Origin: Archivesica marissinica
Lineage: Eukaryota > Mollusca > Bivalvia > Venerida > Vesicomyidae
Length of the DNA: 64,000 nt
Reading direction: 5' to 3'
Assembly (NCBI GenBank): GCA_014843695.1
Contig: CM026403.1
Span: forward strand, 4,464,150-4,528,149
Positions within the stretch are counted from its first letter, which is position 1. Each line of letters begins with the position of its first letter. Shown one piece after another: positions 13,354 to 58,335 of the stretch. The notes beneath the pieces are model-generated. The model saw only the letters and a program-made list of their open reading frames with translations. It was not told the origin of the DNA and searched no databases. A program made the position numbers and the translations under genes.

Positions 13354-14322
13354 TGTGCAAAACCACAATTATGTGCACGAAATGTTTATTATTGTTATAT
13401 ATAAATAGTAATGTATTATATAAATACATTAAACTGTTTCTATATATGGCCAAGTGTTTACCATGTAATATATATATATTTGTTTTATGCATAATCGTCT
13501 GCTATTATTTTCGCGCCTAAAATTATCAGTCTCGTTTCGCGCGGGAAATGACTTAAGATTTTAGGCCTAATCTCAGTTTATCGAGGCCGTGGTTGCAGGT
13601 GTCCAGTTATGTAATATTAAGGCGACGAACTGGTTTGATGGTGTAATATTAGATAACATAACAGATGTTTTAGGAATAACAGATGTTTTAGGAATTGTTA
13701 TATCATATAGACACTGATTCAATCGTGTATATAAGAAATGGATTTTATTAACTAAAATCAGAACACTATAGCCTACCTCCAGGAGAGAGAGTGGCGTGAT
13801 CTCATTCTATTTTATAGAACAGATAAACTGTTTCTATGATACTTAGATATTATGGACATTATAAGAATTATAACCTTATAAAGATTTGTCGAATAATTAA
13901 ATAAAATCGTTCAGCCATAGAAGAAACAGAGAGTTTCGGCGAACCATATCGAAGGTGATTAAAAGTTAATAAATCAGAAACCTTGATTAGATTATAGTGA
14001 TATTGAGTAATGACGGATTAGAGAGACTGGAGTTAATTATACTGTGTAGCGCATAGTCGGCTCACACAATTGGATTGTTAAATAAGCGTTTAATGATACG
14101 ATGTATATATATAAATCACTGATTATATATATATGAAGATCTCTGATGCCAATTTAGACAAGATATTATATAGAAGAAATGTAAGACTGGTTGAGTTATC
14201 ATTAATTATATATCGAAGAAGAAACCCCTAGAAACTCCAGCGAGTCTACAATAGGATAGACCTGGTAAGAGCCGAAGCAACTGAGTCATATACATACAAG
14301 AAGAAAAAGGAGAGTTGCGACA
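13354..14322 (+). repeat. 5' LTR (969 bp)
   Basis: Begins TGTGCAAAACC and ends GCGACA, i.e. TG...CA. It holds a TATA-like TATATAAG at 13728-13735 and an AATAAA at 13900-13905, in the promoter-then-polyadenylation order expected of an LTR. Confidence 0.92.
13728..13735 (+). promoter_or_regulatory. LTR TATA box candidate
   Basis: TATATAAG, also present at 20017-20024 in the 3' LTR, about 170 bp before the LTR AATAAA. Assigned by position and consensus only. Confidence 0.5.
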
Positions 14323-14344: not shown

Positions 14345-14955
14345 GGAAATACAATACAATACAAAACATTTTATTGCATGAGATAATAAAATACAATAAG
14401 AAGAAGTGACATATCGTGAATATTGTGAAGGACACTAGAATTTATATATGGAATATTGTGAAGGACACTAGGATTTATACTGAAGAATACAAGGGACTAT
14501 TAATAACGTGTGAAAACAGAAGTACATGCGAGACAGTGTTAGAATTTGGAAATAAGTGAAAGACGTCAACGAATTAAAATTAATTGAAATGGATTAAATT
14601 ATTGGAAATGTGCAAACTTTGGAATATGTGATAAATTATATATTGGATTAACGGACGAGACAGACTTCGGTAAGTACAGTTTTCTTTTATAGAGGCTAAA
14701 TATTACATAAATTATGCATTCTGGATTACTTCTGTTTATGAACTCAATTCTATAATAATTTGGAGTACGATTTGGGATAAAAAAATAAAAAAAAAAAAAA
14801 TTAGAATAAAATGGCTACTTATACATAGGGTGCTAATAAGGAATTAACCTGAGGGGCCGGTTCCACCCGACTTGCCATTTTGGGAAATTTATTTTATGAT
14901 TTTTTTTTTGTTATATTTTTATTAGACGATTAGGTGTGAGATATGGGACAAATTA
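14345..14955 (+). other. LTR-element leader, non-coding
   Basis: AT-rich leader between the primer-binding site and gag. It contains a short imperfect duplication (ATATTGTGAAGGACACTAG at about 14420 and 14455) and two homopolymer A or T runs. No coding signal. Confidence 0.6.
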
Positions 14956-17900
14956 ATGAGACTTCCCTTCTTTAATCAGGCAAATCTGGAACGTCAGGGT
15001 GAGATTTACCAGAAAGAAAGAGAGAGAGAAAGAGAGAGGGAAGAAATAAAACAAAGAGAAGAAAGAGAGAGGGAAGAAGTAAAACAAAGAGAAGAAAGAG
15101 AGAGGGAAAGAGAAGAGAAAGAAAGGGACAGGGAGGAAAGAATGCAAAGGGAGAAAATGCAGATGGAGATTCGCCTGAGAGAAATCCAGAGAGATCAGGA
15201 ATCTCAGCAAAATAACCCCCTCCCTACAGATAATAGGCCCTCTAAGACAAACATTTCTGTTCCTATTTGGACCCAGACTATGAGGCCAGATAAATTCTTC
15301 GCAACATGTGAGAGACTGTTCGAAGCTAGCCAGGTCGCCAAACAAACATGGGTGGGCCATATTATAGACATGTTGTCCGACAAGGCCAGAAATATATATG
15401 CCACTCTTCCTGTCCAAGACGCTAATAATTACGATACCCTAAAGGCCGCCATCTTGGATGAATATAGACTCTCACCCACTGTATATAGAAAGAATTTCTT
15501 CTCTTGGGTAAAGAAACCTCAGCAGACATATTCCGAATTCATTAAGGAATTAAGGGAGCAAATGACTCTATGGACGGAGAACAGTGATCCGAGCGAGGTC
15601 AACTGGATCGAGCTGCTCTTGAGATATAGATTCGATTCCCAGCTAAGTGATGAGCTTAATTTGTTCATTCTGGATAAGAAAGCATCTACTCTCCAGGAAT
15701 GTATTTCCCTGGCCGATGAATATAACCTCCATCGCAGATTAGCGCCCAGGACACGGATTAATTCAAATCCGAATTTGAAACCCAGAGATACAGAACACCG
15801 ACCTCCAGCCCCAAGGCCATATATCCCATCACCCATGTATCGACCCAATATTAGGATAGATAATTCCCAAGCTACCCATAGAACTCCCCGGATAGAAAAA
15901 TATTGTAGTTATTGTAGGCGTAATGGCCACGGACGAATAGAATGTTGGGCAGATCCCAATTCACCTAGGTACAGGGGTACTAGAAACCTAGCAAACGGAC
16001 ACCACGTGTCAAACACTACTCATAGTTCTGCCTTTATAACCAATGAGCCAGTGAACTCATGTGAAAATACCGAGATGGTAAATCCATTACTTGCCAAATA
16101 TACAGGTCAAGCACGCATAAATACTAACACCGCACAAGTGACGTATTTGAGAGATACAGGTGCGACAATCAGTTTATTGTCGGCTACTGATCAAACCACT
16201 GATCATTTAGAATACACAGGTGAACGGGTAACAATCCGCGGTGTCAATTATATCCCTGGTAATTACCCGATAGCAAAGATTAGCGTCGATTGTCCAATCT
16301 ACCAAGGAACATTGAAGGTGGCTGTATTAAAGCACAGATGCACCGCGGGGGTGGATCTTATAATAGGTAACGACTGTGAAACTGCCCCTGTCACTGATTT
16401 GATTACCTGTGGCGTGGTTACACGCTCCAATAAGAAAATTATCCCGTTTGATGAAACTGTCACGTCCAACCCAGACTCAGAAAACACGACCGATACAAAT
16501 CACAATGTCTTACCTTTTCGGAATACAATTGAGATCAATTCCCCCTCTGAGAAAGCCAGTACAGTTAAACCCCAAAATATTCCCTCTATTGACGATTTGA
16601 GTCCTGATAAATTATTGCAAGAACAGAATAATGACCCGACCTTAGCACCCCTCTGGGAAATGGCTCAAGAAGGAACACCTATTCGGCAAGGATATTACAT
16701 CCAGCTCGAACCCCGACTACTTATGAGGAGAGAACAACCTCAAGACACGTCCAAAGTTCGACCCTGGAAAATATATGATCAGGTGGTAGTTCCACGGGGA
16801 TTCCGGGATCATATAACGGGACTCGCCCATGACAGTTTAAGTACGGGACACCAGGGACCTAGTAAGACCCTGAAGCGCATTAAGCGCCGCTTCATTTGGC
16901 CGGGAATCCGCGCAGATGTTAAACGATTCTGCCATAGCTGTGGGCCGTGCCAGAGAGCGGGTAAGGGACAGAAAGCCACTGTAGCCCCATTGAAACCCTT
17001 GCCCATTATATCCCAACCATTCAAATTTATATCCGCTGATTTCGTTGGACCCATGAAGAAAACTATAAATGGGAACCAGTATATCTTGAATTTTATTGAT
17101 CATGCCACTAAATATACAGAATCTTTCCCATGCGCCGCAGCGACTGCTGTTAATGCACAAAAAGCCCTGATCGAGATAATATCTCGACATGGAAAACCCC
17201 AGACCCTGTTGACTGACCGAGGAAGCGCTTTCATAGCTGAAACATTCACACGCTTCCTAGCCGAGCACGATATACGTCACTTAACTAGCACGAGTTACAG
17301 GCCTCAAACCAACGGATCAATAGAGAAATATAATGGTACATTGAAAACCATGCTTAGAATCCTTGGGGAGAACTCTTTATCGCCTTGGGATGAGATGCTA
17401 CCCTGGCTATTATTTGCATATAGAAGTGCAGAGCACTCTAGCACAGGATATTCTCCTTTCTACCTTCTATATGGGCGCGAACCTAGAGATAATCTAGATT
17501 CCACTTATGATCTCTGGGCTAGAAATGAGCGGGATGAAGGGATCCCCATAAATAACTATGTACAAGAATTATGTCATAGATTAGCTGAAGCGTTACGTGA
17601 CGCCAGCGAGAATGCCCAACAGGCCGCAGATGGTCGTAAAACAAAGTATGACAGAAGTAAGAAAGCGAAAATGCGTGTATTCCAGCGTGGTGAATTAGTG
17701 TTAGTACGATTACCGTTAAAAGGTAATAAGCTGAAGAATGCCCTCCAGGGACCGTATCCGGTACACGAAAAGGTAGCGTCGCATACCTATATTATATACA
17801 TGCCCGATAAGAGAGTAAAATACCGTGTTATGCATGTAAACCAGTTGAAGCCCTGGACAGGTAGGGAGGAGGGTGCAGCTCTAGCTGATAGTAGTCCGGT

Positions 17901-18195
17901 GTATGAGTCCCAAGACCCTACCCTATTAGATTACCAAGCCCCTACGGACATTGAGAAAGAATTCGATTCTTGCAGTCCTCTTGAATCTGTACCTAAGAAA
18001 GCCTGGCCGGATATCAGTCATTTAAACCCAGACCACAGGGACGATATTAGTCAGTTATTTGACCGTTACCCCCGTCTATTCTCTGGACAACTGGGACGTT
18101 TCCACGGTGTTACCCATGATATTGATGTGCAAGGTGCTTCACCCGTAGTCCAGCCTTACTACCGCATATGTCTCCAGAAAAGAAACAAATATTAA
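14956..18195 (+). CDS. gag-protease-integrase polyprotein of the LTR element
   Basis: Frame of 1,079 codons. Residues ~20-75 are an extremely charged E/R/K coiled-coil-like stretch. About 110-260 is a Ty3/gypsy-type gag core. A CCHC zinc knuckle (C-x2-C-x4-H-x4-C, CSYCRRNGHGRIEC) is at ~316. An aspartic protease active site D-T-G-A is at ~400, with a flap-side motif DLIIGNDC further on. Integrase follows: an HHCC zinc-binding region (H at ~623, CHSC/GPC at ~655-664), a catalytic core with Asp in SADFVGPM (~694), Asp in LLTDRGSAF (~754) and Glu exactly 35 residues later, then a GPY/F module (QGPYPV, ~930). The frame ends just after entering the N-terminal edge of RT, where a 2-bp shift puts the rest of RT in another frame. 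The ATG at 14956 is the first in this frame that keeps the whole gag. Confidence 0.92.
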   Translation: MRLPFFNQANLERQGEIYQKEREREREREEIKQREEREREEVKQREEREREREEKERDREERMQREKMQMEIRLREIQRDQESQQNNPLPTDNRPSKTNISVPIWTQTMRPDKFFATCERLFEASQVAKQTWVGHIIDMLSDKARNIYATLPVQDANNYDTLKAAILDEYRLSPTVYRKNFFSWVKKPQQTYSEFIKELREQMTLWTENSDPSEVNWIELLLRYRFDSQLSDELNLFILDKKASTLQECISLADEYNLHRRLAPRTRINSNPNLKPRDTEHRPPAPRPYIPSPMYRPNIRIDNSQATHRTPRIEKYCSYCRRNGHGRIECWADPNSPRYRGTRNLANGHHVSNTTHSSAFITNEPVNSCENTEMVNPLLAKYTGQARINTNTAQVTYLRDTGATISLLSATDQTTDHLEYTGERVTIRGVNYIPGNYPIAKISVDCPIYQGTLKVAVLKHRCTAGVDLIIGNDCETAPVTDLITCGVVTRSNKKIIPFDETVTSNPDSENTTDTNHNVLPFRNTIEINSPSEKASTVKPQNIPSIDDLSPDKLLQEQNNDPTLAPLWEMAQEGTPIRQGYYIQLEPRLLMRREQPQDTSKVRPWKIYDQVVVPRGFRDHITGLAHDSLSTGHQGPSKTLKRIKRRFIWPGIRADVKRFCHSCGPCQRAGKGQKATVAPLKPLPIISQPFKFISADFVGPMKKTINGNQYILNFIDHATKYTESFPCAAATAVNAQKALIEIISRHGKPQTLLTDRGSAFIAETFTRFLAEHDIRHLTSTSYRPQTNGSIEKYNGTLKTMLRILGENSLSPWDEMLPWLLFAYRSAEHSSTGYSPFYLLYGREPRDNLDSTYDLWARNERDEGIPINNYVQELCHRLAEALRDASENAQQAADGRKTKYDRSKKAKMRVFQRGELVLVRLPLKGNKLKNALQGPYPVHEKVASHTYIIYMPDKRVKYRVMHVNQLKPWTGREEGAALADSSPVYESQDPTLLDYQAPTDIEKEFDSCSPLESVPKKAWPDISHLNPDHRDDISQLFDRYPRLFSGQLGRFHGVTHDIDVQGASPVVQPYYRICLQKRNKY

Positions 18196-18872
18196 AAACT
18201 GAGCTAGATCAAATGTTGGAGTTAGGAATTATCCGCCCTAGCAGAAGCCAGTGGGCCTCTCCCATAATATTGGTACGCAAATCAGACTCAGAATGGCGAC
18301 CATGTATTGATTATCGGAAAATTAATGACCTGACTCGAGGAGAAGCCTTCCCCATCCCGAGATTAGACGATCTCATTGATCAGGTCGCAGGTTCGAGTCT
18401 GATATCCATTCTAGATCTTAATAAAGGATATTGGCAGATTCCGCTAACCCCTCGAGCTAGTGAAAGTGCAGCGTTCATAACCCCATGGGGCTTGTTTGAA
18501 CCATTAACTCTCCCATTTGGTTTAAAAAACGGTGGAGTTACCTTCCAGAGGGCCATAAACGAGATAATCGCTCAATCCCCGACAGAACCCATCCGTGATA
18601 GATTTGCCGACGCATATCTGGATGATATTGCTGTTCGATCCAATTTATGGTCACAGCACATAAATCACTTGGATTGGACATTTCATAGACTAGAGGATAG
18701 TGGTGTTACTTTGAATCCGAAAAAGTGTAAAATTGGGTCTGGAACAGTCAGGTACTTGGGACATGAATTAGGTTCGGGAAAAATCAAACCAATTTCCAGC
18801 AAGGTGAGTGTATTAGTAATATCTCTCCCCCACAGACCAAGAAACAATTACGAGGATATATGGGATCAGTAG
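18168..18872 (+). pseudogene. Reverse transcriptase of the LTR element, frameshifted
   Basis: RT palm and fingers of Ty3/gypsy type. Visible are WASPIILVRKSD and WRPCIDYRKIN, then LDLNKGYWQIPL, the LPFGLKN motif and the catalytic box YLDDIAV. The frame overlaps the end of the integrase frame and departs from it at a CATATG sequence that looks like a 2-bp AT duplication. The RT frame stops at 18872, because a second one-base shift near 18810-18830 moves the connection into the RNase H frame. Both breaks look like mutations and not programmed slippage, since no slippery heptamer or readthrough context is evident. RT lies downstream of integrase, which defines the unusual order. Confidence 0.85.
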
Positions 18873-19423
18873 GATTTTACAGGAAATTCATTCCCCAGTT
18901 CGCTGAGATCGCCGCTCCCCTGACTGACTTATTAAAGGGCAAGCGATCAGGGAACATCATAACTCAGTGGAGCGATAAACATCAACTTGCTTTCGAATCC
19001 TTAAAGAAATCTTTAACCAATAAACCTATACTGAAGGCCCCTGACTTTAACCAAGAGTTCGAACTCTATACTGATGCTTCCGATTTGGGAATTTCGGCTG
19101 TACTGACTCAGACCGTTGACCAAGTACCACACCCAGTAGCATTTTATTCCCGAAAACTTATTCCACGAGAGAAAAACTACTCTACAATAGAGAAGGAATT
19201 ATTAGCTATAGTGGCCGGTATCGAACATTTTCGCATATATGTAAGCACAAGCAAAACACTAATCAATTCAGATCATAATCCCCTTGTATGGTTACGTAGG
19301 TCGAAAACGTCCAATCAACGCCTCTTAAGATGGGCACTGTGTCTCTCAGAATTTAATCTGACCATTAAACATATCAAAGGGACTCAAAATGTTCTGGCAG
19401 ACTTTCTCAGTAGAGTTCAATGA
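18812..19423 (+). CDS. RT connection and RNase H of the LTR element
   Basis: The open frame, with an internal ATG at 18860, begins with the RT thumb/connection motif GSVGFYRKFIPQFAEIAAPL. It continues to RNase H: first catalytic Asp in YTDASDLGISAVL, Glu in EKELLAIVAGIEHF, and Asp in NSDHNPLVWL. It ends in LADFLSR, the usual end of gypsy RNase H, followed by a stop. No integrase follows, which confirms that integrase exists only upstream. In this copy the domain is detached from RT by a frameshift. Confidence 0.85.
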   Translation: MSNISPPQTKKQLRGYMGSVGFYRKFIPQFAEIAAPLTDLLKGKRSGNIITQWSDKHQLAFESLKKSLTNKPILKAPDFNQEFELYTDASDLGISAVLTQTVDQVPHPVAFYSRKLIPREKNYSTIEKELLAIVAGIEHFRIYVSTSKTLINSDHNPLVWLRRSKTSNQRLLRWALCLSEFNLTIKHIKGTQNVLADFLSRVQ

Positions 19424-19644: not shown

Positions 19645-20611
19645 TGTGCAAAACCACAATTATTTGCACGAAATGTTTATTATTGTTATATATAAATAGT
19701 AATGTATTATATAAATACATTAAACTGTTTCTATATATGGCCAAGTGTTTACCATGTAATATATATATTTGTTTTATGCATAATCGTCTGCTATTATTTT
19801 CGCGCCTAAAATTATCAGTCTCGCTTCGCGCGGGAAATGACTTAAGATTTTAGGCCTAATCTCAGTTTATCGAGGCCGTGGTTGCAGGTGTCCAGTTATG
19901 TAATATAAAGGCGACGAACTGGTTTGATGGTGTAATATTAGATAACATAACAGATGTTTTAGGAATAACAGATGTTTTAGGAATTGTTATATCATATAGA
20001 CACTGATTCAATCGTGTATATAAGAAATGGATTTTATTAACTAAAATCAGAACACTATAGCCTACCTCCAGGAGAGAGAGTGGCGTGATCTCATTCTATT
20101 TTATAGAACAGATAAACTGTTTCTATGATACTTAGATATTATGGACATTATAAGAATTATAACTTATAAAGATTTGTCGAATAATTAAATAAAATCGTTC
20201 AGCCATAGAAGAAACAGAGAGTTTCGGCGAACCATATCGAAGGTGATTAAAAGTTAATAAATCAGAAACCTTGATTAGATTATAGTGATATTGAGTAATG
20301 ACGGATTAAAGATACTGGAGTTAATTATACTGTGTAGCGCATAGTCGGCTCACACAATTGGATTGTTAAATAAGCGTTTAATGATACGATGTATATATAT
20401 ATAAATCACTGATTATATATATATGAAGATCTCTGATGCCAATTTAGACAAGATATTATATAGAAGAAATGTAAGACTGTGTTGAGTTATCATTAATTCA
20501 TATATCGAAGAAGAAACCCCCTAGACAACTCCAGCGAGTCTACAATAGGATAGACCCTGGTAAGAGCCGAAGCAACTGAGTCATATACATACAAGAAGAA
20601 AAAGGAGAGTT
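19645..20611 (+). repeat. 3' LTR, cut off by the assembly gap
   Basis: Matches the 5' LTR from TGTGCAAAACC almost to its end. The last ~10 bases fall in the gap. About five single-base insertions relative to the 5' LTR are packed into the last ~130 bp before the Ns, while the rest has few differences. Confidence 0.92.
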
Positions 20612-21611
20612 NNNNNNNNNNNNNNNNNNNNNNNNNNNNNNNNNNNNNNNNNNNNNNNNNNNNNNNNNNNNNNNNNNNNNNNNNNNNNNNNNNNNNNNNN
20701 NNNNNNNNNNNNNNNNNNNNNNNNNNNNNNNNNNNNNNNNNNNNNNNNNNNNNNNNNNNNNNNNNNNNNNNNNNNNNNNNNNNNNNNNNNNNNNNNNNNN
20801 NNNNNNNNNNNNNNNNNNNNNNNNNNNNNNNNNNNNNNNNNNNNNNNNNNNNNNNNNNNNNNNNNNNNNNNNNNNNNNNNNNNNNNNNNNNNNNNNNNNN
20901 NNNNNNNNNNNNNNNNNNNNNNNNNNNNNNNNNNNNNNNNNNNNNNNNNNNNNNNNNNNNNNNNNNNNNNNNNNNNNNNNNNNNNNNNNNNNNNNNNNNN
21001 NNNNNNNNNNNNNNNNNNNNNNNNNNNNNNNNNNNNNNNNNNNNNNNNNNNNNNNNNNNNNNNNNNNNNNNNNNNNNNNNNNNNNNNNNNNNNNNNNNNN
21101 NNNNNNNNNNNNNNNNNNNNNNNNNNNNNNNNNNNNNNNNNNNNNNNNNNNNNNNNNNNNNNNNNNNNNNNNNNNNNNNNNNNNNNNNNNNNNNNNNNNN
21201 NNNNNNNNNNNNNNNNNNNNNNNNNNNNNNNNNNNNNNNNNNNNNNNNNNNNNNNNNNNNNNNNNNNNNNNNNNNNNNNNNNNNNNNNNNNNNNNNNNNN
21301 NNNNNNNNNNNNNNNNNNNNNNNNNNNNNNNNNNNNNNNNNNNNNNNNNNNNNNNNNNNNNNNNNNNNNNNNNNNNNNNNNNNNNNNNNNNNNNNNNNNN
21401 NNNNNNNNNNNNNNNNNNNNNNNNNNNNNNNNNNNNNNNNNNNNNNNNNNNNNNNNNNNNNNNNNNNNNNNNNNNNNNNNNNNNNNNNNNNNNNNNNNNN
21501 NNNNNNNNNNNNNNNNNNNNNNNNNNNNNNNNNNNNNNNNNNNNNNNNNNNNNNNNNNNNNNNNNNNNNNNNNNNNNNNNNNNNNNNNNNNNNNNNNNNN
21601 NNNNNNNNNNN
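20612..21611. other. Assembly gap (1,000 N)
   Basis: Exactly 1,000 Ns, a conventional placeholder size. It lies between the 3' LTR and the 51-bp array, so unknown amounts of both may be missing. Confidence 0.99.
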
Positions 21612-31579: not shown

Positions 31580-34500
31580 TGTATGTACAATACCTATACC
31601 ATAGATCAGGGTATGTACAATACATATACCGTAGATCAGGGTATGTACAATACCTATACTGTAGATCAGGGTATGTACAATACCTATACCATAGATCAGG
31701 GTATGTACAATACCTATACTGTAGATCAGGGTATGTACAATACCTATACCGTAGATCAGGGTATGTACAATACCTATACTGTAGATCAGGGTATGTACAA
31801 TACATATACCATAGATCAGGGTATGTACAATACCTATACCATAGATCAGGGTATGTACAATACATATACTGTAGATCAGGGTATGTACAATACCTATACC
31901 ATAGATCAGGGTATGTACAATACATATACTGTAGATCAGGGTATGTACAATACCTATACTGTAGATCAGGGTATGTACAATACCTATGCCATAGATCAGG
32001 GTATGTACAATACCTATACTGTAGATCAGGGTATGTACAATACATATACTGTAGATCAGGGTATGTACAATACATATACCATAGATCAGGGTATGTACAA
32101 TACCTATACCATAGATCAGGGTATGTACAATACCTATACTGTAGATCAGGGTATGTACAATACCTATACTGTAGATCAGGGTATGTACAATACATATACC
32201 ATAGATCAGGGTATGTACAATACATATACCATAGATCAGGGTATGTACAATACCTATACTGTAGATCAGGGTATGTACAATACCTATGCCATAGATCAGG
32301 GTATGTACAATACATATACCATAGATCAGGGTATGTACAATACCTATACTGTAGATCAGGGTATGTACAATACCTATACCATAGATCAGGGTATGTACAA
32401 TACCTATACCATAGATCAGGGTATGTACAATACCTATACTGTAGATCAGGGTATGTACAATACATATACCATAGATCAGGGTATGTACAATACCTATACC
32501 ATAGATCAGGGTATGTACAATACCTATACTGTAGATCAGGGTATGTACAATACCTATACTGTAGATCAGGGTATGTACAATACCTATACTGTAGATCAGG
32601 GTATGTACAATACATATACTGTAGATCAGGGTATGTACAATACATATACCATAGATCAGGGTATGTACAATACCTATACCATAGATCAGGGTATGTACAA
32701 TACCTATACTGTAGATCAGGGTATGTACAATACCTATACTGTAGATCAGGGTATGTACAATACCTATACTGTAGATCAGGGTATGTACAATACATATACT
32801 GTAGATCAGGGTATGTACAATACATATACCATAGATCAGGGTATGTACAATACCTATACCATAGATCAGGGTATGTACAATACCTATACTGTAGATCAGG
32901 GTATGTACAATACCTATACCGTAGATCAGGGTATGTACAATACCTATACTGTAGATCAGGGTATGTACAATACATATACTGTAGATCAGGGTATGTACAA
33001 TACCTATACCATAGATCAGGGTATGTACAATACCTATACCATAGATCAGGGTATGTACAATACCTATACTGTAGATCAGGGTATGTACAATACCTATGCC
33101 ATAGATCAGGGTATGTACAATACCTATACTGTAGATCAGGGTATGTACAATACCTATACCATAGATCAGGGTATGTACAATACCTATACTGTAGATCAGG
33201 GTATGTACAATACATATACCATAGATCAGGGTATGTACAATACCTATACTGTAGATCAGGGTATGTACAATACCTATGCCATAGATCAGGGTATGTACAA
33301 TACATACTGTAGATCAGGGTATGTACAATACCTATACCATAGATCAGGGTATGTACAATACCTATACCATAGATCAGGGTATGTACAATACCTATACTGT
33401 AGATCAGGGTATGTACAATACCTATACTGTAGATCAGGGTATGTACAATACCATATACAATGATCAGGGTATGTACAATACCTATACCATATGTACAATA
33501 CCTATACCATAGATCAGGGTATGTACAATACCTATACTGTAGATCAGGGTATGTACAATACATATACCATAGATCAGGGTATGTACAATTTACCTATACT
33601 GTAGATCAGGGTATGTACAATACTTGGGTTTTACAATACCTATACCATAGATCAGGGTATGTACAATACCTATACACAGGGTATGTACAATACTTATAGT
33701 CAGGGTTGTAGATCAGGGTATGTACAATACATACTGTAGATCAGGGTATGTACAATACCTATACCATAGATCAGGGTATGTACAATACTGTCAGGGTATG
33801 TACATACTCTTGCAATAGATCAGGGTATGTACAATACCTATACTGTAGATCAGGGTATGTACAATACATATATAGATCAGGGTATGTACAATACCTGTGA
33901 TCAGGGTATGTACAATACCTATACTGTAGATCAGGGTATGTACAATACATATACATAGGGTATGTACAGATCAGGGTATGTACAATACCATAGATCAGGG
34001 TATGTACAATACTATAGATCAGGGTATGTACAATACATATACATAGATCAGGGTATGTACAATACCTATACCTAGATCAGGGTATGTACATACAATACCT
34101 ATACCATAGATCAGGGTATGTACAATACATATACTGTAGATCAGGGTATGTACAATACCTATACCATAGATCAGGGTATGTACAATACCTATACCATAGA
34201 TCAGGGTATGTACAATACCTATACTGTAGATCAGGGTATGTACAATACCTATACCATAGATCAGGGTATGTACAATACCTATACTGTAGATCAGGGTATG
34301 TACAATACCTATACCGTAGATCAGGGTATGTACAATACCTATACCATAGATCAGGGTATGTACAATACCTATACCATAGATCAGGGTATGTACAATACCT
34401 ATACTGTAGATCAGGGTATGTACAATACCTATACCGTAATCAGGGTATGTACAATACCTATACTGTAGATCAGGGTATGTACAATACCTATACTGTAGAT

Positions 34501-35511
34501 CAGGGTATGTACAATACCTATACTGTAGATCAGGGTATGTACAATACCTATGCCATAGATCAGGGTATGTACAATACCTATACTGTAGATCAGGGTATGT
34601 ACAATACCTATACCATAGATCAGGGTATGTACAATACCTATACTGTAGATCAGGGTATGTACAATACCTATACCATAGATCAGGGTATGTACAATACCTA
34701 TACTGTAGATCAGGGTATGTACAATACCTATACCATAGATCAGGGTATGTACAATACCTATACTGTAGATCAGGGTATGTACAATACCTATACCATAGAT
34801 CAGGGTATGTACAATACATATACTGTAGATCAGGGTATGTACAATACCTATACCATAGATCAGGGTATGTACAATACCTATACCGTAGATCAGGGTATGT
34901 ACAATACCTATGCCATAGATCAGGGTATGTACAATACCTATACTGTAGATCAGGGTATGTACAATACATATACCATAGATCAGGGTATGTACAATACCTA
35001 TACCATAGATCAGGGTATGTACAATACCTATACCATAGATCAGGGTATGTACAATACCTATACTGTAGATCAGGGTATGTACAATACATATACCATAGAT
35101 CAGGGTATGTACAATACCTATACCATAGATCAGGGTATGTACAATACCTATACTGTAGATCAGGGTATGTACAATACCTATACCATAGATCAGGGTATGT
35201 ACAATACCTATACTGTAGATCAGGGTATGTACAATACATATACCATAGATCAGGGTATGTACAATACATATACCATAGATCAGGGTATGTACAATACCTA
35301 TACCATAGATCAGGGTATGTACAATACCTATACCGTAGATCAGGGTATGTACAATACCTATACCATAGATCAGGGTATGTACAATACCTATACCATAGAT
35401 CAGGGTATGTACAATACCTATACTGTAGATCAGGGTATGTACAATACCTATACCATAGATCAGGGTATGTACAATACCTATACCATAGATCAGGGTATGT
35501 ACAATACCTAG
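31580..35511. repeat. 30-bp minisatellite, about 130 copies, with disordered middle
   Basis: The unit core is GATCAGGGTATGTACAATAC. Units differ mainly in the segment before GATC (CTATACTGTA, CTATACCATA, CATATACCATA, TATGCCATA, TATACCGTA). Register is perfect at 31580-33300 and 34440-35511. Between about 33300 and 34440 there are several frame slips, and about 33440-34090 is heavily disrupted by indels and truncated units. Open frames on both strands are a by-product of the period. Confidence 0.97.
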
Positions 35512-35652
35512 ACATCGTTCTTTGTTTCTACCATACAGACATCGTTCTTCGTTTCTACCATACAGACATCGTTCTTTGTTTCTACCATACATACATCGTT
35601 CTTCGTTTCTACCATACAGACATCGTTCTTCGTTTCTACCATATAAACATTG
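35512..35652. repeat. 27-bp minisatellite, about 5 copies, just upstream of septin exon 1
   Basis: The unit core is ACATCGTTCTTCGTTTCTAC. It abuts the 30-bp array on its left and ends about 50 bp before the splice acceptor at 35704. Confidence 0.9.
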
Positions 35653-35704
35653 TTCTCGTGTTTCATACTTCTTCCCTCAGCACATTGTCTGTGTTTATTT
35701 TCAG

Positions 35705-35791
35705 GTGAGACTGGACTTGGTAAATCCACGTTGATCAACAGCCTGTTCCTCATGGACCTCTACAAGGATAGAAAATCGGGAAATAGTGAAG
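35705..35791 (+). CDS. Septin, visible exon 1 (P-loop)
   Basis: First recognised exon of a septin, a GTP-binding cytoskeletal protein that forms hetero-oligomeric filaments at membranes and division sites. It encodes the G1 P-loop GETGLGKST followed by [15 protein letters not shown]. The ten exons found make 329 residues. Family members of this type are about 360-370, so some 40 N-terminal residues lie on exons I could not find. [32 protein letters not shown] and the late KLKRES resemble SEPT4/SEPT5 of the SEPT2 subgroup. The acceptor is TTATTTTCAG; the first Gly codon is split (one base upstream). The donor GTTTCA is weak, but its phase 1 fits exon 2. The exon sits between a 27-bp array and a G-rich array. 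Confidence 0.93.
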
Positions 35792-38639: not shown

Positions 38640-38763
38640 AGAGAATACAAAAAACTGTGGAGTTAGAAAGGAAAGAGATAGAGATAGAAGAACGGGGTGT
38701 GAAGTTAAAACTGACCATTGTTGATACACCAGGGTTTAATGATGCCATTAATGCTGAAGAAAG
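38640..38763 (+). CDS. Septin, exon 2 (switch II / G3)
   Basis: Encodes ERIQKTVELERKE, then IEERGVKLKLTIVDTPGFND (fragment residues 45-64), the septin beta strands leading to the G3 motif D-T-P-G. The position after the Phe is Asn63, where septins nearly always have Gly (DTPGFGD). The upstream one-base phase joins exon 1 as Glu30, and the donor GTTTGT leaves two bases (AG) for exon 3. The frame stays open into the intron for some 30 codons without septin similarity. The exon edges follow from the family alignment and phase. Confidence 0.92.
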
Positions 38764-40141: not shown

Positions 40142-40276
40142 TTGGAAGCCTATCGTGCAGTATATAGATGAACAATTTGATGCCTACTTCACGGCAGAGA
40201 GTGGCTTAAATAGGAAAAATATCCAAGATACCCGTGTTCATTGCTGTCTCTATTTCATCTCACCATACGGTCACGG
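40142..40276 (+). CDS. Septin, exon 3
   Basis: Encodes fragment residues 72-115: [20 protein letters not shown], then [15 protein letters not shown] and [10 protein letters not shown]. This is the septin-specific stretch after switch II (E-S-G-L-N-R, the [10 protein letters not shown] strand). The incoming two bases AG give Ser71, and the outgoing GG is completed by exon 4 as Gly116. Its last 60 nt, together with the first 19 nt of the intron including the donor GTAGGT, are the founding unit of a tenfold tandem array directly downstream. Confidence 0.93.
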
Positions 40277-41006
40277 GTAGGTACTGAGCACCGTGAAATA
40301 TCCAAGATACCCATGTTCATTGCTGTCTCTATTTCATCTTACCGTACGGTCACGGGTAGGTACTGAGCACCGTGAAATATCCAAGATACCCATGTTCATT
40401 GCTGTCTATATTTCATCTTACCGTACGGTCACGGGTAGGTACTGAGCACCGTGAAATATCCAAGATACCCATGTTCATTGCTGTCTATATTTCATCTTAC
40501 CGTACGGTCACGGGTAGGTACTGAGCACCGTGAAATATCCAAGATACCCATGTTCATTGCTGTCTATATTTCATCTTACCGTACGGTCACGGGTAGGTAC
40601 TGAGCACCGTGAAATATCCAAGATACCCATGTTCATTGCTGTCTATATTTCATCTTACCGTACGGTCACGGGTAGGTACTGAGCACCGTGAAATATCCAA
40701 GATACCCATGTTCATTGCTGTCTATATTTCATCTTACCGTACGGTCACGGGTAGGTACTGAGCACCGTGAAATATCCAAGATACCCATGTTCATTGCTGT
40801 CTATATTTCATCTTACCGTACGGTCACGGGTAGGTACTGAGCACCGTGAAATATCCAAGATACCCATGTTCATTGCTGTCTATATTTCATCTTACCGTAC
40901 GGTCACGGGTAGGTACTGAGCACCGTGAAATATCCAAGATACCCGTGTTCATTGCTGTCTATATTTCATCTCACCGTACGGTCACGGGTAGGTACTGAGC
41001 GCTGTG
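40217..41006 (+). repeat. 79-bp tandem array of the exon 3 / intron 3 junction, exactly 10 copies
   Basis: Copies start every 79 bp from 40217 to 40928. Each contains 60 nt of exon 3 (from AAATATCCAAGAT to GGTCACGG), then GTAGGTACTGAGC, so each carries an intact copy of the 5' splice site. The first copy is the real exon end. Internal copies carry ACCCATGTT and ATCTTACCG, which would change coding residues. The last copy shares ACCCGTGTT and TCTCACC with the first. Each extra copy shifts frame (79 = 26 codons + 1) and includes an in-frame TAG just past the junction, so the extra copies should be intronic. Confidence 0.97.
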
Positions 41007-41205
41007 AAATATCGTTATACAAATACAGTCAAACCTGACTATTAAGAGGTCAGTTTATAGATTCCTTAACTGACATTTTAATATATCTTACCTGCCATCT
41101 GTGCTAAGCAGCAACTTTCCGTGGTTCCATTTACTGTGGCATAAGACAGTTTGTTAGTTATAAATAAACTTGTTGTGCATTTTGACAGAATAAATGAAAT
41201 TGTTT

Positions 41206-41482: not shown

Positions 41483-41759
41483 TGTGGTCCACACAATCTG
41501 CAGTTGGTTCTCGTCGTTTTAAGCATCAACTACTGTCCTACAATGTAACACATAGAATGAACCCAGGTATACAGGTACATTCATGTTAATTACAATCCTC
41601 CGAGGACAGTTAGGAGTTGTATATAGGTTTGATGTTGCTTGTCTATCTGTTCATCTGTTCGTTGGTCTGTCATACCATTGACACTCCGTTTCTTTCATCA
41701 CAATTGACCCCATTTGAATTTATCTTTAGGTCAAGCCTAAATAGGTGAGCAACCTGGTT

Positions 41760-42075: not shown

Positions 42076-42193
42076 CCTGCGGCCGGTAGATGTTATGGTG
42101 ATGAAGAAGTTACATCACAAAGTTAACATCATACCCCTCATTGCCAAGTCTGACATGCTGACCAAGCAGGAGGCAAAACGATTGAAGGAAAAG
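42076..42193 (+). CDS. Septin, exon 4 (G4 motif)
   Basis: Encodes fragment residues 117-155: [20 protein letters not shown], then [19 protein letters not shown]. The G4 base-recognition motif of septins, A-K-A-D, appears as A-K-S-D (residues 139-142); Lys and Asp are kept. The acceptor is TACTTACAG, with one base completing Gly116. The donor AAG|GTATGT is in phase 0 and strong. A 47-bp array starts about 12 bp after the donor. Confidence 0.94.
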
Positions 42194-48869: not shown

Positions 48870-48972
48870 GTATTATTGGAGGTACAGAAACACAACATAC
48901 AGATATACCAGTACCCTGATTGTGATAGTGATGAAGACGAAGAATTCAAATTCCAAGACAAAGAACTTAAGG
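48870..48972 (+). CDS. Septin, exon 5, with a one-base frame break
   Basis: Encodes [20 protein letters not shown] then [11 protein letters not shown], the septin stretch ending in the acidic S-D-E-D-E-x-F motif (fragment residues 156-187). At 48960-48963 there are four A where the family alignment and the splice phase both call for three. As written, the frame meets TAA at 48969-48971, and the 103-nt exon no longer joins exon 6 in phase. The acceptor TTTGTAG and the donor AAG|GTAGAG are otherwise clear. The cause could be a homopolymer sequencing error, a loss-of-function allele, or a decaying gene copy. All other exons are intact, which favours error. Confidence 0.88.
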
Positions 48973-50156: not shown

Positions 50157-50253
50157 AAATCCATTCCATTTGCTGTTGTTGGCAGTAACACTGTGGTAGA
50201 AGCTGGTGGTAAAAAGATTAGAGGCAGGATGTATCCATGGGGAATTGTTGAAG
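50157..50253 (+). CDS. Septin, exon 6
   Basis: Encodes [20 protein letters not shown] then [12 protein letters not shown] (fragment residues 190-221). A-V-V-G-S-N-T is the septin G5-like region and R-G-R-x-Y-P-W-G the septin-unique element, which takes part in the guanine-nucleotide-side (G) interface. The acceptor TTTTTCTCTCAG is strong; the donor GAAG|GTAAGT is in phase 1 and strong. Confidence 0.95.
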
Positions 50254-53216: not shown

Positions 53217-53268
53217 TGGAAAATCCATTACATTCAGATTTTATAAAGCTGAGACAGATGTTGATCAG
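53217..53268 (+). CDS. Septin, exon 7 (52 bp)
   Basis: Short exon encoding (V)ENPLHSDFIKLRQMLI (fragment residues 223-238), the conserved septin V-E-N-P-x-H-x-D-F-x-K-L-R segment. It takes one base from exon 6 (giving Val222) and passes two bases to exon 8 (giving Ser239, where most family members have Arg). The acceptor is ATATTTCAG and the donor CAG|GTAATA. It is squeezed between a 24-bp array and a 41-bp array that begins within about 10 bp of the donor. Confidence 0.93.
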
Positions 53269-53274
53269 GTAATA

Positions 53275-53898
53275 CAGACTAGTGCATGTATAGGGTGTGT
53301 TAAAAGTTTCTTCCAGATTATTGTGCATGTATAGGGTGTGTTAAACGTTTCTTCCAGATTATTGTGCATGTATAGGGTGTGTTAAACGTTTCTTCCAGAT
53401 TATTGTGCATGTATAGGGTGTGTTAAACGTTTCTTCCAGATTATTGTGCATGTATAGGGTGTGTTAAACGTTTCTTCCAGATTATTGTGCATGTATAGGG
53501 TGTGTTAAACGTTTCTTCCAGATTATTGTGCATGTATAGGGTGTGTTAAACGTTTCTTCCAGATTATTGTGCATGTATAGGGTGTGTTAAACGTTTCTTC
53601 CAGATTATTGTGCATGTATAGGGTGTGTTAAACGTTTCTTCCAGATTATTGTGCATGTATAGGGTGTGTTAAACGTTTCTTCCAGATTATTGTGCATGTA
53701 TAGGGTGTGTTAAACGTTTCTTCCAGATTATTGTGCATGTATAGGGTGTGTTAAACGTTTCTTCCAGATTATTGTGCATGTATAGGGTGTGTTAAACGTT
53801 TCTTCCAGATTATTGTGCATGTATAGGGTGTGTTAAACGTGTCTTCCAGACTGTAGTGCATTTATAGGGAGTGTTAAAAGTTTCTTCCAGACTGTAGT
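53275..53898. repeat. 41-bp minisatellite, left part, about 15 copies
   Basis: The unit core is GCATGTATAGGGTGTGTTAA then CGTTTCTTCCAGATT. Every unit contains TTTCTTCCAG, a good match to a 3' splice site. Units next to the transposon insertion are more diverged (ACTGTAGTGCATTTATAGG). Confidence 0.95.
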
Positions 53899-54368
53899 CA
53901 GGGCCGTCGCTGGAGATATTTTGATGATACGCACGACCAAATATGCTTATTTGTCGAGTGATCATAGTAGCGAGCGAGTACGATAGGGGGTCCGGGGGCA
54001 TAGCCCCCTGAGATTTTTTGAAAATGAGGAAGCAATTTCCTGCATTTCAATGCATTTTGTAACATACAATTGCAGGACTAAAGTACTTACGACAATCCGT
54101 ATAAAGGTATAAATTAAGGCTAGCTGTATAATATACATGATCTATCGCCCTTATCAATTAAACAAGCATGTAAAATAGCAGAAACTAAATTTCGAGATGC
54201 ACCATATTTGCAATGGGCTCAATTATTCCACCACTCCACACATCACGGCGCATATGTATCCCTACTACCCCCTGGGATTTTAATGCATTTTTGGAGTTTT
54301 CATTTTTTTCATTTTCTGAGACCAATGATACGCACGTGCATACTTGCGTATGCCCAGCGACGGGCCTG
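53899..54368. mobile_element. 470-bp non-autonomous DNA transposon inserted in the 41-bp array
   Basis: Terminal inverted repeats CAGGGCCGTCGCTGG and CCAGCGACGGGCCTG (13 of 15 match), with GTAGT on both sides (53894-53898 and 54369-54373) as an apparent 5-bp target-site duplication. Internal GGGGGTCCGGGGGCATAGCC followed by an A/T-rich body is a style common in hAT-like non-autonomous elements, though hAT usually makes 8-bp duplications. No transposase. Superfamily left open. Confidence 0.75.
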
Positions 54369-54690
54369 GTAGTGCATTCATAGGGTGTGTTAAAAGTTTC
54401 TTCCAGATTATTGTGCATTCATAGGGTGTGTTAAAAGTTTCTTCCAGATTATTGTGCATTCATAGGGTGTGTTAAAAGTTTCTTCCAGATTATTGTGCAT
54501 TCATAGGGTGTGTTAAAAGTTTCTTCCAGATTATTGTGCATTCATAGGGTGTGTTAAAAGTTTCTTCCAGATTATTGTGTATTTATAGGGTGTGTAAAAA
54601 GTTTGTTCCAGACTATTGTACATTTATAGGGTAAAAAGCTTGTTACAGACTGTAGTGCATTTATACGGTGTGTAAAAAGGTTTCTTCCAG
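54369..54690. repeat. 41-bp minisatellite, right part, about 8 copies
   Basis: Continuation of the array at 53275, with the variants GCATTCATAGGG and AAAAGTTTCTTCCAG. It decays after 54580. Confidence 0.93.
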
Positions 54691-55174: not shown

Positions 55175-55279
55175 TACTCACATGCAAGACCTGAAAGACG
55201 TAACTTGCGACATACATTACGAAAACTACAGAGCCGAACATATATCTGAGCAGATGACCACTGGTCAGAGAGAAAGAGG
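55175..55279 (+). CDS. Septin, exon 8
   Basis: Encodes (S)[20 protein letters not shown] then [14 protein letters not shown] (fragment residues 240-273). [10 protein letters not shown] and H-Y-E-N-Y-R are the end of the GTPase domain in the SEPT4/5-like group. The acceptor is GCTTTTCAG. The donor must be GG|GTCTGT, leaving two bases that exon 9 completes as Gly274. The motif is weak, but it is the only GT that keeps phase. Confidence 0.92.
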
Positions 55280-55435: not shown

Positions 55436-55677
55436 GTTTAAACTTTATTTATGATTGCGAAACAAGCTTTATCACCTTATATTAATCACTCTCGTTGGCA
55501 CGGATGAAAGCGTAAATGTGGTCATTCGTGTGGGAGGAAACCGGAGTACCCGGGGAAAACCCACCTGTCCGATCTGACGACCACCGTACCATCTCACATA
55601 CTTCCCGGTCCGAGGATCAAACCCGGGTCGCATTGGAGAGAAGCGAGCGTGCTAACCACCGCGCTAATCGGACAGCT
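55436..55677 (-). mobile_element. tRNA-derived SINE, family B, copy 3 (most complete)
   Basis: Minus strand: TCCGATTAGCGCGGTGGTTA (A box), CGACCCGGGTTTGATCC (B box), then GATGGTACGGTGGTC, CGTGTGGGAGGAAACC-type body and a tail with GCTTGTTTCGCAATC and AAATAAAG. It lies in intron 8. Confidence 0.88.
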
Positions 55678-56340
55678 GCAGTTCTGTATTCGCGTGTGTA
55701 CTGTGTTCAACAGCAGTTTCATTTACATGTATGATGTTATTTCTAAGTACAAGAGGGCCAAACTTTCATGCAGATTTTAGTATTGACATTAATCCTCACC
55801 GTTTGACCTAATTTCTTGGTTTTGAAACAACAGTCATGAAATTTACCTTAGATGACATTGGCCATGGCCTTTTGTTAAACACGTAGACTTTTATATTAAA
55901 GGAATATCTTTCAAAATGATATTGTTTAAATGCGATAGGAATATATTTTCTGCCAGGTTCATAAGTGCACAATTTTACCTACTGGTATTCGAGCAATAAT
56001 GAGTCATCTTGACCCTTTTGTTTATTGCAAATGTCTGATATTCAATATAAAGCTTTCATAAAAATGCAACTTGTAACCAAGTTTGAACAAAATCCAAAAA
56101 CAATAGGGTGTAACAAGGATTTCCCTCAATTTGCCGCAGTGACCTAATTTAACAAAATTAGATCTACAATGGAGTTGCTTCACTATTTACTAGGATCTGC
56201 CATTAAAATGTAACGTGTGACCAAGTTTGAACATAATCCAGTGACAAATAGACTTCCTACAGGAATTATCTCGCAAATATTTACGAATAAAAGTCGATAA
56301 CACTTCTTCATGTCGCGTTCTAAGCACATATTTATTAATG
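55678..56340 (+). other. Septin intron 8, no gene recognised
   Basis: AT-rich sequence with an internal similarity (ACCAAGTTTGAACAAAATCC at about 56080 and ACCAAGTTTGAACATAATCC at about 56221), which suggests an old dispersed repeat. Confidence 0.45.
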
Positions 56341-56798
56341 ATATAGATATATATCTTATATTACAGGAAGTTGAAGTAATGATATAGAGTGAAGAGATAT
56401 ATATCTTATATTACAGGAAGTAATGATATAGAGTGAAGAGATATATATCTTATATTACAGGAAGTAATGATATAGAGTGAAGAGATATATATCTTATATT
56501 ACAGGAAGTTGAAGTAATGATATAGAGTGAAGAGATATATATCTTATATTACAGGAAGTAATGATATAGAGTGAAGAGATATATATCTTATATTACAGGA
56601 AGTTGAAGTAATGATATAGAATGAAGATATATATATCTTATATTACAGGAAGTTGAAGTAATGATATAGAGTGAAGAGATATATATCTTATATTACAGGA
56701 AGTTGAAGTAATGATATAGAATGAAGAGATATATATCTTATATTACAGGAGGTTGAAGTAATGATATAGAGTGAAGATATATATATCTTATATTACAG
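56341..56798 (+). repeat. 44/50-bp array of the exon 9 splice acceptor, 10 junctions including the real one
   Basis: Each unit ends TATATCTTATATTACAG and continues GAAGTTGAAG (or the shorter GAAG) then TAATGATATAGA. The real exon 9 begins with the same GAAGTTGAAG. Thus 40 nt of intron end plus 10 nt of exon start were amplified. In every upstream copy the exon-like part runs at once into an in-frame TAA. Confidence 0.96.
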
Positions 56799-56877
56799 GA
56801 AGTTGAAGAGGGAATCAGCAGCCAATCTGGAGTCTTCCCTGGAAACAGAGAAATTACTGCAGGAGAAGGAAGCAGAG
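56799..56877 (+). CDS. Septin, exon 9 (coiled-coil start)
   Basis: Encodes KLKRESAANLESSLETEKLL then QEKEAE (fragment residues 275-300), the start of the C-terminal coiled coil. The one-base incoming phase completes Gly274. The acceptor is TATATTACAG, the last of ten tandem copies. The donor GAG|GTGTGT is in phase 0. Confidence 0.92.
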
Positions 56878-57398: not shown

Positions 57399-57488
57399 AT
57401 TAAAAGAATGCAGGAGATGTTGATGAAGATGCAAGCACAGTTACAGAAAAGTAGTCCGAGACTTAATGGCAGAGTGGGTCATGTATAA
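57399..57488 (+). CDS. Septin, last exon with stop
   Basis: Encodes IKRMQEMLMKMQAQLQKSSP then RLNGRVGHV and TAA at 57486-57488 (fragment residues 301-329). The heptad-like K-R-M-Q-E-M-L-x-K-M-Q-x-Q-L completes the C-terminal coiled coil used for septin-septin pairing. The ending G-H-V resembles C-termini in the SEPT2 subgroup. The acceptor is GCTGTTTTACAG. The 3' UTR array starts immediately after the stop. Confidence 0.94.
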   Translation: MKRMQEMLMKMQAQLQKSSPRLNGRVGHV

Positions 57489-58335
57489 TGAACAACAGAG
57501 GGGGTCATCTAGACCTAACAACACAGGGGTTCATCTAGACCTAACAACACAGGGGTTCATCTAGACCTAACAACACAGGGGTTCATCTAGACCTAACAAC
57601 AGAGGGTGTCATCTAGACCTAACAACACAGGGGTTCATCTAGACCTAACAACACAGGGTGTCATCTAGACCTAACAACAGAGGGTGTCATCTAGACCTAA
57701 CAACACAGGGGTTCATCTAGACCTAACAACACAGGGGTTCATCTAGACCTAACAACACAGGGTGTCATCTAGACCTAACAACAGAGGGTGTCATCTAGAC
57801 CTAACAACACAGGGTGTCATCTAGACCTAACAACAGAGGGTGTCATCTAGACCTAACAACACATGGGGTCATCTAGACCTAACAACACAGGGGTTCATCT
57901 AGACCTAACAACACAGGGGTTCATCTAGACCTAACAACACAGGGGTTCATCTAGACCTAACAACACAGGGGTTCATCTAGACCTAACAACACAGGGGTTC
58001 ATCTAGACCTAACAACACAGGGTGTCATCTAGACCTAACAACACAGGGGTTCATCTAGACCTAACAACACAGGGGTTCATCTAGACCTAACAACACAGGG
58101 GTTCATCTAGACCTAACAACACAGGGGTTCATCTAGACCTAACAACACAGGGTGTCATCTAGACCTAACAACACAGGGGTTCATCTAGACCTAACAACAC
58201 AGGGTGTCATCTAGACCTAACAACACAGGGGTTCATCTAGACCTAACAACAGAGGGTGTCATCTAGACCTAACAACACATGGGGTCATCTAGACCTAATA
58301 ACAGAGTGTCGACTAGACCTAACAGCACAGGGAGG
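57475..58335 (+). repeat. 26-bp minisatellite in the septin 3' UTR, about 33 copies
   Basis: The unit core is GTCATCTAGACCTAACAACA, with GGGGTT, GGGTGT and GAGGGTGT linkers. The last codons and stop (GGGTCATGTATAATGAACAACAGAG) align with a unit at about two-thirds of positions. Confidence 0.95.

Follow-up and report, generated by a model that had tools for sequence, protein, structure and literature searches.

Minisatellites whose repeat unit extends across an exon-intron boundary have been named mirage minisatellites and described in amphioxus, namely, in Adh3, in the globin genes BflGb6 and BflGb9, in PGBD5, and in the gene for troponin C (TnC) (PMC3087553, PMC3902484). These arrays affect either 5' or 3' boundaries, and reverse transcription-PCR suggested that they do not interfere with splicing (PMC3087553); normal splicing of the host gene is reported for Adh3, TnC, and the globins (PMC3087553, PMC3902484). 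Length instability is reported for the Adh3 and BflGb6 mirages, and the study of PGBD5, which also cites troponin C, describes two mirage arrays in one gene (PMC3902484). Here, we describe two arrays of this kind in a septin gene of the vesicomyid clam Archivesica marissinica. The gene lies in a 64,000-nucleotide (nt) stretch of DNA (assembly GCA_014843695.1, contig CM026403.1, positions 4,464,150 to 4,528,149), the whole of which is referred to as the window and from the first letter of which all further positions are counted. One array carries ten donor sites at the end of an exon, and the other carries ten acceptor sites at the start of a later exon. They are best filed as mirages in a mollusc, doubled in one gene. 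No earlier mollusc mirage was found among the papers listed in searches of the open-licence PMC literature, and term-matched passages of three mollusc papers (PMC9210306, PMC4732748, and PMC6007483) yielded no boundary repeat. As we read the evidence, such an array most likely was born by chance over an exon-intron boundary and is an accident that the gene tolerates, not a device.

The clam arrays resemble the amphioxus mirages, as these are characterized in the reports cited above, in that tandem units (10 to 160 bp in the globin genes and Adh3) lie across a donor or an acceptor. As in BflGb6, the inner copies of the donor array are homogenised with the exclusion of the array boundaries, and as in PGBD5, two boundary arrays occur in a single gene. 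However, the cases found under the mirage name are from cephalochordates, whereas the septin host is a bivalve gene with its best match in the venerid bivalve Mercenaria mercenaria (92%). There are ten sites in each septin array, compared with 3 and 6 units in two BflGb6 haplotypes and with 2 to 7 and 3 to 6 repeats of PGBD5 in two assemblies. Variable tandem repeats in human segmental duplications are also mostly minisatellites, some of them located at exon-intron boundaries, but changed splicing and novel introns are reported for them (PMC2812944), while the septin open frame is without such a change. The variable number tandem repeat in intron 6 of human TERT is likewise a minisatellite in a transcribed gene, and it affects splicing; its repeats, however, are not presented as copies of a splice site in the relevant passages of that report (PMC3948165). 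Intron gain by tandem genomic duplication (the Rogers model, cited in PMC3087553; PMC4974935) similarly involves duplicated sequence bearing AG/GT, but no new intron is evident in the septin gene. In the searchable literature, arrays called mirages are confined to amphioxus, and human segmental duplications harbour boundary repeats of a related kind; the clam case suggests that mirages arise wherever introns are minisatellite-rich.

Two boundary arrays in one septin gene

The donor array (positions 40217 to 41006, plus strand) consists of ten copies of exactly 79 nt each, arranged head to tail with zero indels, and every copy comprises 60 nt of exon end and 19 nt of intron start. This layout, proposed in a first-pass annotation of the window, was confirmed. 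The call of Tandem Repeats Finder (TRF) itself extends from 40217 to 41013 (10.1 copies, 98% matches, score 1531), with the extra 7 nt reading AAATATC. As that annotation had also proposed, the array sits on an exon-intron boundary, spanning the end of septin exon c (40142 to 40276, plus strand; 135 nt) and the start of the following intron, and identical GTAGGT donors recur 79 nt apart, being present as CGG/GTAGGT (slash, splice point) in all ten copies. The septin protein match ends in copy 1. The GTAGGT of this copy (40277 to 40282, plus strand) is accordingly predicted to be the authentic donor, giving a phase-2 junction (GG/C), and the nine decoy GTAGGT donors, which fall between 40356 and 40993 on the same strand, start at 40356, 40435, 40514, 40593, 40672, 40751, 40830, 40909, and 40988.

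Variation within the 79-nt unit is confined to six positions (18, 34, 45, 49, 74, and 76). Copies 3 to 9 are identical, which we list as a further difference from the amphioxus mirages; copy 2 departs from them at one site, and copy 1 and copy 10 each do so at four. G18 (CGT, Arg) and C45 (TCA, Ser) are found in copies 1 and 10, whereas copies 2 to 9 have A18 (CAT, His) and T45 (TTA, Leu), and the two inner changes indeed alter amino acids (R to H and S to L), as had been noted. The accompanying idea, that the end copies retain ancestral bases and the inner copies are derived and homogenised, holds in the main, as at positions 18 and 45, but is only partly symmetric, since copy 10 carries the inner state at positions 34 and 49. 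Positions 74 and 76, in the intron, deviate in copy 10 alone, and the variation is therefore graded rather than symmetric. Residues at the two altered positions were tallied over 120 listed septin matches, 14 of which did not fit the search pattern and were left uncounted. All 106 fitting matches have Arg at the first of these positions; at the second, 55 have Ser, 51 have Pro, and none has Leu. Copy 1 therefore looks to be held by protein selection, with the inner copies free.

The second boundary array, which is absent from the first-pass annotation, lies at 56337 to 56808 (plus strand) and ends in septin exon i (56799 to 56877, plus strand; 79 nt). It is built of 44- and 50-nt units, each containing CTTATATTACAG directly followed by GA(A/G)G. 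There are ten acceptors, and the 20 nt upstream are identical in all ten. Nine are decoys, the exon starts of which would be at 56367, 56417, 56461, 56505, 56555, 56599, 56649, 56699, and 56749 on the plus strand. The last, before 56799, is considered the real one because the joined frame across the junction (QRERGKLKRES) matches the Mercenaria sequence (QRERGKLKRDS).

In both arrays, the unit includes exonic as well as intronic sequence and spans a real splice boundary, which is the anatomy of a mirage. One copy at each array explains the protein, and the coding sequence is unaffected. The gene, in which the ten donors are identical and the ten acceptors nearly so, is a natural test of choice among equal splice sites.

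The gene model was obtained with tblastn, followed by a check of splice signals and frame, and places ten exons of the septin gene in the window, all on the plus strand, between 35705 and 57488. Exons a (35705 to 35791) and b (38640 to 38763) precede exon c, and exons d (42076 to 42193), e (48870 to 48971), two further exons (50157 to 50253 and 53217 to 53268), and exon h (55175 to 55279) lie between exons c and i; the exon with the stop codon is at 57399 to 57488. Joined, they form a 328-residue open frame ending in the stop codon, and the predicted septin identity of the host gene was borne out by Pfam (Septin, PF00735; E value, 4.4e-117). Among the best 120 of 5387 protein matches, the first is the Mercenaria mercenaria septin-5-like protein (92% identity, 100% query coverage), which places the host near the Veneridae. 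It is followed by an unnamed protein, P0002 (85%), and then by the next named matches, from Dreissena, Mya, Pecten, Argopecten, and Potamilus, all of which are bivalves. Both array junctions are gapless with respect to Mercenaria and seven further septins, these eight relatives having been hand-picked from the 120 listed matches. Residues 1 to 62 of the Mercenaria septin had no convincing match in the window (the best, far downstream at 55626, covers 11 residues with a stop; E value, 0.12) and may be encoded in a gap of 1000 Ns at 20612 to 21611 or outside the window. Exon c, numbered 3 in the first-pass annotation, comes third among the visible exons but, given the unmatched 62 residues, is at least the fourth coding exon.

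Birth of the donor array

AAATATC opens each unit of the donor array, first at 40217 to 40223 in exon c, and occurs again on the plus strand at 41007 to 41013, in the intron directly after copy 10, beyond which the sequence departs from the 79-nt unit. With this 7-nt direct repeat at both ends, the single ancestral boundary would therefore have had two AAATATC copies at a distance of 79 nt, an exonic and an intronic one, and the right copy is the probable birth point. For breakpoint pairs 40 to 120 nt apart in the array-free parts of the window, the chance of a shared run of at least 7 nt at a random pair was 0.00085 (1,971,882 cases). Array birth between short direct repeats is a mechanism known from the minisatellite literature, and the AAATATC pair probably marks such an event. 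A truncated eleventh copy would give the same picture.

Slippage or unequal exchange between the two AAATATC copies could have duplicated the boundary, and more unequal exchange or conversion would then have enlarged the array and homogenised its inner copies. The first copy would have been kept by protein selection, and the last may have been protected by its edge position.

Splice-site choice and competing explanations

Every decoy leads to an early stop. Behind donors 2 to 10, TAG is the first extra codon in nine of nine cases, as the first-pass annotation had pointed out, and at the decoy acceptors, a stop is the second or fourth codon past the junction codon, again in nine of nine. Exon c would measure 214 to 846 nt with the decoy donors, compared with 135 nt with donor 1, and exon i would measure 129 to 511 nt with the decoy acceptors, compared with 79 nt with the last acceptor. 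In both arrays, the correct site is the outermost one of the intron and yields the shortest exon. Exon definition, in which the exon is recognised as a unit, is an established splicing principle. Under this principle, a short exon could be recognised as a whole, and of equal sites, those giving the shortest exon would be chosen. All decoys would thereby fall within the intron and be removed with it, and any mis-spliced transcripts with early stops should go to nonsense-mediated decay. Such use of the outermost sites would account for the tolerance of the arrays. The clam case suggests that exon definition may shield short exons in this way.

Two other selectors were considered and rejected. 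Donor strength was ruled out by the scores of the donor-like sites, which were calculated with a scoring matrix and are given in the next paragraph; the TAG/GTACTG site that overlaps the donor scores low (-1.68). Masking of the decoy donors by RNA structure was rejected since folding of the array RNA did not surpass that of dinucleotide-shuffled sequence (z of 0.17 for two units with 200 shuffles and of 0.53 for 909 nt with 20 shuffles). A 6-bp hairpin of TCACGG and CCGTGA can be read around the donor in copies 1 to 9, and because all nine have it, it cannot single out copy 1.

The arrays probably have little or no function, and a regulatory role is unlikely. Several observations weigh against a chance-born, tolerated array as the full account of the locus. 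The ten array donors score equally (4.99), and the donor-like TAG/GTGAGC at 41745, in the array intron, scores 6.2 and thus outranks the real donor, so that score alone would favour the wrong one. By exon length, donors 1 and 2 differ only weakly (135 versus 214 nt). That donor 1 and the last acceptor are used is read from the protein match, and the gene model includes low-scoring donors at exons a (GTTTCA) and h (GTCTGT), the junctions of which nevertheless fit the proteins of relatives. No direct repeat was found at the ends of the acceptor array, and the simple birth model consequently does not cover it. Finally, the copy number comes from one assembly.

If the arrays did regulate, they could act as a splicing rheostat, in which decoys are used part of the time, giving early-stop transcripts, and the septin level is adjusted through copy number. 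The equal donor scores, the early stop behind every decoy, and the presence of both arrays in one gene speak for this possibility, as does human TERT, the splicing of which is described as governed by a minisatellite with a copy-number threshold (PMC3948165). However, the folding values reported above lend it no help, and the amphioxus mirages are reported without splicing disturbance. Moreover, the early stops would be no sign of design, because any boundary copy read through noncoding sequence soon meets a stop. We therefore regard a rheostat as unlikely.

We also find it unlikely that the copy number, or even the whole donor array, was made by misassembly. Seven of the ten copies are identical, the window contains the gap of 1000 Ns mentioned above, and one amphioxus mirage was misassembled in the genome draft (PMC3087553). 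On the other hand, the six variable positions are ordered along the array and the end copies are distinct, 790 nt should be short relative to long reads, and numerous further arrays occur in the window (97 TRF rows, some of which overlap).

A more specific regulatory proposal, in which the ten donors and ten acceptors together form a brake set by copy number, each extra decoy cutting the amount of productive septin mRNA, appears very unlikely to us; if true, variation in array length among clams would be a heritable dial on septin dose. Least probable of all is an intron gain in progress, in which the tandem copies would offer new AG/GT pairs for extra introns or exons: such a model was put forward for amphioxus mirages (PMC3087553) and human boundary tandem repeats are reported to form novel introns (PMC2812944), but both junctions of the septin open frame are free of insertions relative to the eight relatives, and the sequence gives no sign of an internal copy serving as an exon.

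Tandem-repeat setting of the window

An origin by chance can be viewed against the repeat content of the window, where tandem arrays with a period of 10 or more make up 57% of the known bases (TRF). They make up 64% of the septin introns, the share per intron ranging from 0% in the last to 93% between exons d and e. When arrays with a score of 80 or more are counted, they contain only 2 of the 19 splice boundaries, and 14 of 19, including these two, lie within 125 nt of one. Blind placement would by simple arithmetic put about 12 of the 19 boundaries in arrays, and the boundaries are therefore under-hit, as selection would have it. Where arrays are born frequently, some can start across a boundary, and those that leave one good copy can persist.

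Several other arrays near the septin exons contain sequences that resemble splice sites. A 41-nt array at 53282 to 54690 has the acceptor-like sequence TTCTTCCAG 20 times and is split by an insert near 53900 to 54370. The ends of this insert look like inverted repeats (AGGGCCGTCGCTGG and the reverse complement AGGCCCGTCGCTGG), and it probably represents the insertion of a small DNA transposon into the array. A 30-nt unit is present in about 130 copies (31581 to 35510) upstream of the first visible septin exon, and the donor-like sequence GGGTATGT occurs 131 times there. Next to these copies, at 35510 to 35656, a pyrimidine-rich 27-nt unit is repeated about five times, in three cases with the acceptor-like ACCATACAG; this array ends 49 nt before the exon, to which no likeness was seen. 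At the other end of the gene, a 26-nt array of 32 copies (57491 to 58332) is probably located in the 3' untranslated region, as it begins 3 nt past the septin stop codon.

The window also contains a retrotransposon at 14926 to 19423, with integrase and reverse transcriptase (Pfam rve and RVT_1) encoded in two frames, the integrase first. Matching short repeats at 13658 to 13695 and 19947 to 19984 and at 14104 to 14147 and 20392 to 20437 suggest that it is flanked by long terminal repeats.
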